From Pseudomonadota bacterium (GTDB taxonomy: Bacteria > Pseudomonadota > Gammaproteobacteria > Steroidobacterales > Woeseiaceae): a stretch of DNA of 64,000 bases. Below the pieces are notes generated by a model that made no database searches, was not told where the DNA came from, and was given only the letters and a program-made list of their open reading frames with translations. The first letter of the stretch is position 1. Every line of letters starts with the position of its first letter. Position numbers and translations under genes: made by a program. The DNA is taken from positions 62,001-126,000 of the forward strand of contig JACZWL010000002.1 of assembly GCA_022572185.1 (NCBI GenBank), read 5' to 3'. This document shows positions 9,022 through 49,599 of the stretch, in pieces.

Positions 9022-9043
9022 GTGTTGTAGTACAGTACAACAC
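9022..9043. promoter_or_regulatory. Dyad-symmetric operator-like site
   Basis: GTGTTGTA and TACAACAC form perfect 8-bp arms around six bases, 34 bp upstream of the GTG of the 8443-8988 gene on the minus strand. Size and spacing fit a dimeric regulator such as a TetR- or PadR-type protein. That is inference; no regulator gene is adjacent. Confidence 0.4.
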
Positions 9044-9116
9044 CTGCGTGCCCGAATGCAAGCGGTGATTCTCGGCTATTGCCGGTTATTGACCGGCAAG
9101 ATCCGCTTATTTCGGA

Positions 9117-9153
9117 CTAGTGGTCCATCAATACAACCTTGTTGGACCACTAG
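9117..9153. repeat. Best copy of the palindromic repeat, CTAG-bounded
   Basis: Perfect 11-bp arms CTAGTGGTCCA and TGGACCACTAG enclose a 15-base centre that contains CCTTGT. The outer CTAG on each side could be a 4-bp target duplication or part of the arms. The right CTAG (9150-9153) is shared with the element that follows. Confidence 0.85.
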
Positions 9154-9319
9154 CAGGCTGTTGAAAAACTCTGTTTTTCTACAGCCTGTTAGCCGGTACA
9201 GGGATGTACCATCATTTTCGATGGCTATAAGCCATTGAAAATGTGAGGGATCCGAAAATCACACTTTTCGGATCGCGCCGTTGAAAAAGTCATGGAAGAC
9301 TTTTTCAACATCCTGCTAG
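9150..9319. mobile_element. MITE-like element built of five consecutive hairpins
   Basis: 162 bases between CTAG tetranucleotides at 9150-9153 and 9316-9319. The ends are inverted repeats (CAGGCTGTTGAAAAACTC against CAGGATGTTGAAAAAGTC, 16 of 18). Inside are hairpins at 9150-9192 (12-bp stem with a second GAAAAAC/GTTTTTC stem), 9195-9210 (GGTACA/TGTACC), 9213-9243 (14-bp stem, loop ATA), 9249-9274 (GATCCGAAAA/TTTTCGGATC) and 9281-9308 (TTGAAAAAGTC/GACTTTTTCAA). No coding capacity. A 4-bp CTAG duplication is of the type made by IS5-group elements (YTAR). The family link is inference. The right CTAG supplies the prc stop codon. Confidence 0.75.
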
Positions 9320-11427
9320 GGCCGGACCTGGGCGGTCTGGGCCGGCCGCACATCGATTTCCCTCAACTGCGCCAAGTCTGTGACGATTGCCGCGGCCTGG
9401 TCAAGATGCACATCGGGTGGCTCCAAAGCCTCGAGTTCTTCCAAGGTTGCAACAGGTTCCAGCTGCAACGCTGCCCGGCGTGCATTCTCTCTATCCAGAC
9501 GGCGATTGATCTCATCCTTACGCTCGGCACGGCGGACTTCAATGTTAAGGGACACGCTTTTTTGTGCACGGACCTGTTCGATGTCGTGAATCCCCGCCAT
9601 AAGGTATTGGTAGTCGGGGTCGTCTTTACTGCGCGAGTTGTGGCTGGCCATAAGCGATGAAATCGTGCTGTCCAGCGGCGCGCCAGCCTGGAATTTGGTC
9701 GTTCTGATGGTATCCCAGGGCAAGGCAGTTTCACGAACGCTTTCACCGACCAGCTCGGTATCGATCGAGGATGGCAGGGCGATATCCGGCTTCACACCCC
9801 TGTGTTGGGTGCTCTCGCCTGTCACCCGGTAGTATTTTCCAATGGTCAGCGTCAGCTGGCCGAGGCCTGCCTCATCGGGCCTGCGAACGTACTGATCGAG
9901 CGAATAGAGGTTTTGCACCGTGCCTTTGCCAAAAGTCTGCTGGCCGATAATCACGCCGCGCGCATAGTCCTGAATCGCGGCCGCAAAAATCTCCGAAGCC
10001 GAGGCGCTGTAGCGGTTGACGAGAACGGCAAGCGGTCCGTTGTAGGATACCCGCGGTACGGGGTCGGGATCGTCGAGACGGCTGATCCGGCCGTTCGAGT
10101 TGCGCAACTGGACTACGGGCCCATTGTCAATAAACAGGCCAGACAATGCGGTTGCTTCCGTGAGGTGACCGCCGCCATTGTTTCGGAGGTCGACAATCAG
10201 CCCGTCGATTCCCTCGTCCTCCAGCTCTCTAATCAGGCGTCGTACGTCCTTGGTCGTGCTCGTATAGTCCTTATCGCCGTTACTCAAGGCGCGGTAGTCG
10301 CGGTAGAAACTCGGCACTTTAATCACGCCGATTGACCAATCTCTTCCTTCTCGCGGAACCGTGATGGTTTCGCTTTTTGCGGCTTGCTCTTCCAGCTTGA
10401 CCTGGTTTCTGGTCAGGCTGATGATCTTTTCCGGTGCGCCCGGTAGTGCGCCAGCAGGCATTATTTGCAGTCGCACGACGGTGTCGGCTGGTCCCCGAAT
10501 CAGCTGCACGACGTCGTCAAGTCGCCAGCCAATGACATCGATCAAGTCACCTTGTTCTCCCTGCGCGACACCGGTGATCCTGTCCTTGGGCTGGAGTTTT
10601 CCGTCAATTGCCGCAGGGCCGCCCGGAATAATATTGATGACCATCACATAGTCATCGTCGATTTGCAGCGATGCACCGATTCCGAAATAGGAGAGGCTCA
10701 TCTGAATACGATATTCTTCAGAGTTTCGCGGTGACAAATAACTTGAATGCGGATCGAGCGTATGGGCGAACGCATTCATGAAAGTTTCGAACACGTCGTC
10801 ACTCTTGATCTGATCCATTCGCTTGAGGAAACGCAAGTAGCGCTTGCGCAGGATCTCCTGAGTCTCCGTCCAGTCCTTTTCGGCAAGTCTGAGATTCATG
10901 GCGTCATTCTTGACACGCTTGCGCCAGAGGTCGTCCAGTTCGGCTTCAGTCTGCAGCCAGGGTAGATCCTCCCGGTCAAACACATAGGTTTCATCGATAC
11001 TGAAATCGGGCTCGGTTTCGAGCTGCAGAAGGGCGAAATTCAACCGTTCGCGAACCCGTGCCCGGTATACCGCGAATATTTCGAAGACCGGATTCAGGGG
11101 CTCGGATCTAACCATGTCATCGAGTCGGTAGCGTTGCGGCTCGAAGCTCTCAACATCGCTGGCCAGCAGATACATGCGGTTGCTGTCCAGGGCATAGATA
11201 TATCGATCGAGGACCTTCGATGACAGGTCGTCATCGACGGCGGTGTGCCGGTAGTGAGACTTCTGAACAAACTCGCTGACCAGCTGGCCGATCTTCTCGT
11301 GCCGAGCCTCCGGGCCCAGCTCGTTGTCGGATATGACTGCAGGTATCGCAGCGATGCCGGACAGGGCCCACAGGCATACGAATGCTGCAAAGATCCAGCG
11401 GCGGCAACCGGTGTCAAAATTCTTCAA
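9316..11427 (-). CDS. prc: Tail-specific carboxy-terminal protease Prc
   Basis: About 703 residues, close to E. coli Prc (682). A periplasmic serine protease that trims C-terminal tails of envelope proteins. Order: signal sequence (WIFAAFVCLWALSGIAA), helical N-terminal region with CLIP-like FMNAFAHTLDPHSSYLSP, PDZ domain (about 245-330), then the S41 core with SASASEIFA and FGKGTVQ carrying the Ser/Lys dyad 25 residues apart. An ATG at 11439 exists but has no ribosome site; GGAGGAAAG lies just before the TTG at 11427, so that start is preferred. The TAG stop lies inside the CTAG edge of the adjacent MITE-like element. Confidence 0.93.
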   Translation of the reverse strand: MKNFDTGCRRWIFAAFVCLWALSGIAAIPAVISDNELGPEARHEKIGQLVSEFVQKSHYRHTAVDDDLSSKVLDRYIYALDSNRMYLLASDVESFEPQRYRLDDMVRSEPLNPVFEIFAVYRARVRERLNFALLQLETEPDFSIDETYVFDREDLPWLQTEAELDDLWRKRVKNDAMNLRLAEKDWTETQEILRKRYLRFLKRMDQIKSDDVFETFMNAFAHTLDPHSSYLSPRNSEEYRIQMSLSYFGIGASLQIDDDYVMVINIIPGGPAAIDGKLQPKDRITGVAQGEQGDLIDVIGWRLDDVVQLIRGPADTVVRLQIMPAGALPGAPEKIISLTRNQVKLEEQAAKSETITVPREGRDWSIGVIKVPSFYRDYRALSNGDKDYTSTTKDVRRLIRELEDEGIDGLIVDLRNNGGGHLTEATALSGLFIDNGPVVQLRNSNGRISRLDDPDPVPRVSYNGPLAVLVNRYSASASEIFAAAIQDYARGVIIGQQTFGKGTVQNLYSLDQYVRRPDEAGLGQLTLTIGKYYRVTGESTQHRGVKPDIALPSSIDTELVGESVRETALPWDTIRTTKFQAGAPLDSTISSLMASHNSRSKDDPDYQYLMAGIHDIEQVRAQKSVSLNIEVRRAERKDEINRRLDRENARRAALQLEPVATLEELEALEPPDVHLDQAAAIVTDLAQLREIDVRPAQTAQVRP

Positions 11428-11439
11428 ACTTTCCTCCAT

Positions 11440-49363: not shown

Positions 49364-49546
49364 GTGGTCCAACAAGGCTATATTGACAGGTTCAGCGAGC
49401 CGTGAAGCAGTCGTCCGAAGAGAGTTATCCAGATGATCCAATACCGCGTTGCAGTCCTTGAAAAGGACATGCCATTCCCCGTGGACTGCGCCTGGTCCTG
49501 GATCATCCGGGTAACTCTGAGTCCATCAATATAACCTTGTTGGACC
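49364..49546. mobile_element. MITE-like element with nested inverted repeats
   Basis: 183 bp. The ends are inverted copies of the palindromic repeat family: from 49366 GGTCCAACAAGG and nine further bases match the complement of 49526-49546 with a single difference. Inside, AGAGTTATCCAGATGATCCA (49421-49440) pairs with 49499-49518 at 18 of 20 positions; GCAGTCC/GGACTGC and GTCCTT/AAGGAC form inner stems. No coding potential. It may fold as one long hairpin. Confidence 0.75.
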
Positions 49547-49599
49547 AGCAACAGCCAGATGTCCGTAGCGATGCATACTCTCAGACGAGACCAAGACAG

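Follow-up and report, generated by a model that had tools for sequence, protein, structure and literature searches.

Among the mobile elements described in bacteria, IS5-group MITEs and their insertion at CTAG are already known, and bcr1 of the Bacillus cereus group has a conserved structure. MITEPsy1 from Pseudomonas syringae pv. phaseolicola transposes in vivo and carries ISPsy2-like (IS5-family) inverted repeats of ~18 nt (PMC3189936), while IS5 of Escherichia coli duplicates YTAR, most often CTAG (PMC5493358). The element described here lies next to prc in a 64,000-nt stretch of DNA (the window) from a Pseudomonadota bacterium of the family Woeseiaceae. Like MITEPsy1 it is short and non-coding, with IS5-family-like inverted repeats and a 4-nt duplication (CTAG or YTAA in MITEPsy1), but MITEPsy1 is 100 nt long with ends GGAAGGTCTGAAAAAGCC, and neither a five-hairpin chain nor placement on stop codons is described in the available portion of that report (PMC3189936). 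With IS5 and the NCBIfam family IS5_4 it shares the YTAR target (PMC5493358), and IS5_4 is the DDE family of the insertion sequences that bear its ends; these are autonomous elements of 1.2-1.5 kb, whereas the window element is gene-less. Similarly, bcr1 and QMITE2 of Coxiella burnetii are MITEs of ~150-190 bp with stable folds, and QMITE2 copies reach 1-10 bp into the 3' ends of genes, but their hosts or ends are different and the QMITE2 duplications are 7-11 nt long and variable in sequence (PMC5896051).

Composition of the block downstream of prc

The original prediction described six contiguous hairpins at 9117-9319 as one CTAG-flanked element, and a dyad search recovered all of the dyads where it had placed them. 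Their density is far above background, as had been supposed: folded as single-stranded DNA, the 203-nt block reaches -64 kcal/mol versus -19.9 ± 3.3 for 200 dinucleotide shuffles (z = -13.2), and the MITE portion alone, folded as RNA, gives z = -11.1. The proposed 162-bp stretch between CTAG tetranucleotides with matching inverted ends was likewise present (23 nt, 91% matching, 9150-9172/9297-9319). The chain is not a single element, however. When the own genome (G000; 3.14 Mb in 99 contigs, 96% complete and fragmented) was searched with the block, 49 matches of two kinds were returned, ~17 long (roughly 9150-9319) and ~20 short (9117-9153 only). The block is therefore composite, its first hairpin being a separate 37-nt palindrome repeat that precedes the 162-bp MITE (Table 1). 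Two additional dyads proposed upstream do exist (9022-9043 and 9073-9105, between the palindrome and the next ORF) but are outside the repeated element, because repeat matches begin only at ~9112.

Table 1 Features of the block and the adjoining gene, with positions in the window.
Feature	Positions	Strand	Remarks
CTAG-bounded palindrome, 37 nt (CTAGTGGTCCATCAATACAACCTTGTTGGACCACTAG)	9117-9153		dyad 9117-9131/9139-9153, 93%; separate dispersed repeat outside the MITE
Left CTAG target-site duplication	9150-9153		doubles as right end of palindrome; sister elements show YTAR duplication
MITE proper, 162 bp, terminal inverted repeats CAGGCTGTTGAAAAACTCT / AGACTTTTTCAACATCCTG	9154-9315	+	dispersed copies; covariance-model score 195 bits
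Hairpin H1 (left-end palindrome)	9153-9189	+	dyad 9150-9169/9173-9192, 90%; consensus helix 1 of alignment A1
Hairpin H2, GGTACAGGGATGTACC	9195-9210	+	loop motif CAnGGAnG
Hairpin H3	9213-9243	+	dyad 9213-9226/9230-9243, 93%; conserved in both alignments
Hairpin H4	9249-9274	+	dyad 9249-9258/9265-9274, 100%; stem repeatedly replaced by compensatory change
Hairpin H5 (right-end palindrome)	9280-9309	+	dyad 9280-9291/9298-9309, 100%
Right CTAG target-site duplication	9316-9319		supplies the stop codon of prc (TAG, complement of 9316-9318)
prc, intact gene for a 707-aa tail-specific (carboxy-terminal processing) protease	9316-11439	-	TIGR00225 306 bits (cut-off 219)

The long copies, which the original prediction had proposed to look for, are 85-100% identical and lie at unrelated loci of the own genome, and at least 13 MITE copies were scored in each of two related genera. 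As in other IS5-group MITEs, these dispersed copies are without coding capacity, and no ORF of at least 80 aa lies inside the window element. The idea that the copies always sit beside prc was rejected, since among the loci examined prc adjacency occurs only in this window; one copy lies near an S41-peptidase-like gene (37% identity).

The 37-nt palindrome is present in the own genome as 6 perfect-arm copies and ~20 further near copies. Approximately eight long MITE copies adjoin a palindrome copy with a YTAR in common, mostly at the palindrome's AACAAG end, which fits MITE insertion into the CTAG that the palindrome offers. In places the palindrome ends a longer repeat (..ATTGATGGACTCAGAGCTACCCAGATG..; L029:1502-1536, L054:1217-1251 and window 49516-49550), and it may derive from a second MITE family, as a remnant or as an end. 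Elsewhere, a CTAG-bounded 43-bp solo H1 palindrome (L023:1501-1543) ends a 298-codon ORF, and a CTAG-bounded 80-bp element (L231:1501-1580) retains only parts of both end hairpins.

Terminal repeats and the putative transposase

The MITE ends, CTAG followed by CAGGCTGTTGAAAAA, match those of complete insertion sequences of 1.3-1.5 kb. In the own genome the 19-nt end motif occurs at 58 places versus 1 in the control. At least 118 stretches, belonging to many different phyla, contain the motif CTAGCAGGVTGTTGAAAAA. Among the matches listed, paired ends mostly enclose gene-less elements of 130-215 bp, and six (L103, L138, L098, L171, L187 and L200; ends CTAGCAGGCTGTTGAAAAA) are 1.30-1.54 kb long and carry a transposase frame; these are complete insertion sequences with the same ends, as the original prediction had suggested seeking. 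The four of their transposases that were scanned match NCBIfam NF033581 (IS5_4) at 243-265 bits (cut-off 140) as well as Pfam DUF772 and DDE_Tnp_1, so that the MITE has its ends in common with IS5-family insertion sequences.

A search of G000, G001 and G002, genomes with many MITE copies (tens in G001 and G002), gave no transposase of the IS5_4 type bearing these ends, and we therefore infer the mover; it is missing, has been lost or falls into a gap of the assembly. An autonomous partner in the same genome is usual for a MITE and not required. Two sets of candidates were rejected: an IS1182-type element of the own genome (L089), the ends of which (CAGACTGCTGACAAAGCCC) differ, and transposases found with PF01609 (L060-L062), which have no matching ends nearby.

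Target-site duplication and empty sites

The original prediction read the paired CTAGs as an IS5-group-type duplication. On their own, CTAG/CTAG flanks are ambiguous, because CTAG is self-complementary and may be either a direct duplication or the outermost part of the inverted repeats; asymmetric YTAR flanks were therefore informative. Twelve elements have these flanks in direct orientation (TTAG/TTAG or CTAA/CTAA; they include the orthologue pair L328/L332 and the G000 copies L010 and L017) and none has them inverted, while 65 further elements are flanked by CTAG/CTAG. The 4-bp YTAR duplication of IS5-group MITEs is thus found here.

For Pseudomonas MITEs with the same ends at eight loci, relatives were also searched, using in-silico emptied flanks as queries. 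A single CTAG occupies the site in L346 (versus L333; 93% over 264 bp), in L347 (versus L330) and in L350, L360 and L368 (versus L336), and a single CTAA in L349 (versus L339) and L345 (versus L329). These natural empty sites show precise 4-bp YTAR duplication by the Pseudomonas MITE, and the duplication predicted for the window element is borne out on its sister elements. A further Pseudomonas copy, L198:6252, lies at the stop of an alr-like gene, and its near-identical relatives L299 and L300 lack the MITE; they were rejected as exact empty sites, since they have TGA in place of CTAG.

These results bear on whether the block is instead of the REP/BIME type, mobilised by a RAYT (an HUH, Y1 transposase) that acts on hairpins carrying a tetranucleotide on their 5' side. 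REP/BIME sequences are likewise abundant intergenic hairpins with tetranucleotides (PMC3686654, PMC8266576), and such a reading would accommodate the hairpins and tetranucleotides at both ends, the solo terminal hairpin at L023 and the two Y1 transposase genes of the own genome. However, it is DDE transposition that characteristically leaves direct 4-bp duplications together with exact empty sites, the ends are of the DDE type and are borne by complete insertion sequences, and neither RAYT locus in G000 has a copy of the palindrome or the MITE nearby. One of these RAYTs (L260, contig C89) is beside its own GTAG-type REPs (GTAGGAGCGGC..; GTAGGAGCGGCTTCAGCCGCGATC), and the RAYT of G002 (L254) is likewise flanked by its own GTAG-type repeats (GTAGGAGCGTG; GTAGGAGCGTGACCTGACACGCGAC). 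Spread by a RAYT is consequently very improbable.

Placement on stop codons

The right-hand CTAG of the MITE provides the stop codon of prc, which remains intact, and this coincidence recurs across loci. Elements flanked by 500 bp or more were pooled over loci; of these 86, 59 coincide with a CTAG in which the TAG terminates an ORF of at least 100 aa, versus 66 of the 268 remaining CTAGs at these loci. ORFs were called mechanically in both sets. The difference persisted when gene-interior sites were set aside (59/71 elements versus 66/116 other CTAGs, P = 2e-4) and with a 200-aa ORF threshold (46/74 versus 27/128, P = 9e-9). Convergent double stops, where both neighbouring genes end on one CTAG, were found for 8 of the 86 elements versus 1 of the 268 other sites (P = 7e-5). 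CTAG is depleted in the own genome (observed/expected 0.41 over 464 kb), and 23 of the 67 CTAGs remaining there are stops. Much of the stop-codon effect reflects where CTAG survives, because outside gene interiors 23 of 38 are already stops; a remaining preference is visible in the pooled loci. Only one of the six full-length insertion sequences, a very small sample, is at such a stop.

Conservation of the hairpin chain

Thirty copies, drawn from G000, related genera and Sedimenticola, could be aligned on one structure (alignment A1), in which 96.2% of cells are paired and 23 of 54 pairs are doubly changed, versus 10.5 ± 1.8 when shuffled and 5-8 when slid. Compensatory changes affect 7 of 15 pairs in H1, and double changes 7 of 10 pairs in H4. 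With a covariance model built from A1, 274 genomes sampled from the host's class were searched, and 51 of them, representing 40 genera, contain full-length matches (E <= 1e-6); up to 10 copies were scored per genome, and many genomes reach 10, the complete genomes G309 and G445 among them. Elements of G001 match at about 1e-20 with unrelated inner sequence. In an alignment of 36 class-wide matches, 97.5% of cells are paired and 51 of 54 pairs doubly changed, values that lean towards the model to which this alignment was fitted. These matches bear at least four types of terminal repeat (GTTGAAAAAG, CTCTGAATAA, GCTGAATAAAT and GTCGCAAAAG), and the H2 loop CAnGGAnG is nearly invariant across 22 sequence-divergent families.

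Two side observations concern related arrangements. In the one-contig genome G203, three overlapping model matches (C1:2569108-2569527) lie at intervals of exactly 124 bp and probably represent hairpin-chain elements arranged in tandem. Pseudomonas MITEs with CTAGCAGG ends (L198:6252-6399, L246:1001-1070 and L245:1001-1073) have the inner core GCGTTAAAAA..CAAAATGCTCATTTACA..CGTAAACTCCGCTTTTTCG, which is common to a Halomonas repeat with ends CCTCTGATTAAC and a stretch of a P. cerasi plasmid; here, too, a single core is combined with different ends.

The conserved fold raises the question of whether the functional unit is a structured host RNA or 3'-UTR element (an sRNA, two-way terminator or mRNA stabiliser), with the inverted repeats as interchangeable vehicles. 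The class-wide covariation, the position behind stop codons and the retention of the five-hairpin plan and H2 loop across families with different terminal repeats would all suit an element of this kind. In contrast, a search of Rfam (4227 families) gave no match over the element in the window and only chance-level matches, far below gathering scores, for its relatives; the sole resemblance to a canonical terminator among the hairpins was one weak match; and the gene-facing end is mixed by inspection, being either H1 or H5. Single changes mapped on the tree comprise 31 G-U and 21 A-C, and the data therefore do not favour RNA on one strand over single-stranded DNA. We regard an RNA as the primary unit as somewhat unlikely.

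A second possibility is that no selection acts on the hairpins and that mutation alone made the compensatory changes, through template switching at quasi-palindromes as the DNA replicates. Palindromic DNA readily undergoes such correction of one arm from the other, the G-U and A-C changes are about equal, and loop lengths vary in the G002 copies, all of which agree with such a process. It nevertheless leaves unexplained why always five hairpins recur in the same order in 40 genera and why the letters of the H2 loop are conserved. As a complete explanation it is quite unlikely, and mutational repair of palindromes may contribute to the compensatory changes.

Proposed mechanism and significance

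The block at prc is very probably a gene-less, non-autonomous IS5-group-type MITE, moved in trans by an IS5-family DDE transposase and resting on the prc stop codon. Among the MITE, structured RNA and barrier that were originally offered, the MITE is favoured by the dispersed copies, IS5-family ends, YTAR duplications and sister empty sites. That call stands, but it overlooked the separate first hairpin, the identity of the target CTAG with the prc stop codon and the class-wide conservation of the fold; its opposition between a mobile element and a structure conserved by compensatory change falls away, as both hold here.

Under this mechanism, an IS5-family DDE transposase from an insertion sequence with the same ends would recognise the 15-19-bp MITE ends in trans, and the MITE would insert at YTAR tetranucleotides, strongly preferring CTAG, with duplication of those 4 bp. 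Insertions within genes would tend to be lost, and copies on stop codons would accumulate behind genes. The element would come to rest on stop codons because CTAG is depleted and many surviving CTAGs are stops, and the gene, here prc, is left intact because the duplicated 4 bp carry TAG. The hairpin chain would then form the first part of the 3' untranslated region of one neighbouring gene or of both. Since the five hairpins have been kept by compensatory change over very long times, their single-stranded shape probably matters, and the covariation calls for something extra because a DDE transposon needs no single-strand role. The likeliest cause is that the hairpins are kept as a harmless or useful two-way 3'-end structure that would end or protect transcripts; alternatively, the fold may be needed on single strands during movement.

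In the literature searched, no description was found of IS5-group MITEs placed mainly on stop codons through their CTAG target with the gene left whole, nor of a class-wide five-hairpin plan that compensatory change preserves in roughly one in five of the sampled genomes despite changes of sequence and even of terminal repeats. A 2024 review of prokaryotic MITEs contains neither 'stop codon' nor 'CTAG' in its text (PMC10969869), and literature searches with the end sequences returned only primers and unrelated matches. A broader proposal, which at present we hold to be doubtful, is that these elements form a class-wide 'gene-end' transposable superfamily, in which a selected five-hairpin fold with the CAnGGAnG loop swaps at least four IS5-type end sets and, once lodged at a stop codon, serves one or both neighbouring genes as a preformed 3'-end structure. 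Independently of this proposal, the placement on stop codons and the conserved plan, if right, would explain the near-neutrality of a high-copy element, and would provide naturally occurring 3'-end insertions, paired with empty sites, for studying the effects of hairpin chains on mRNA ends.
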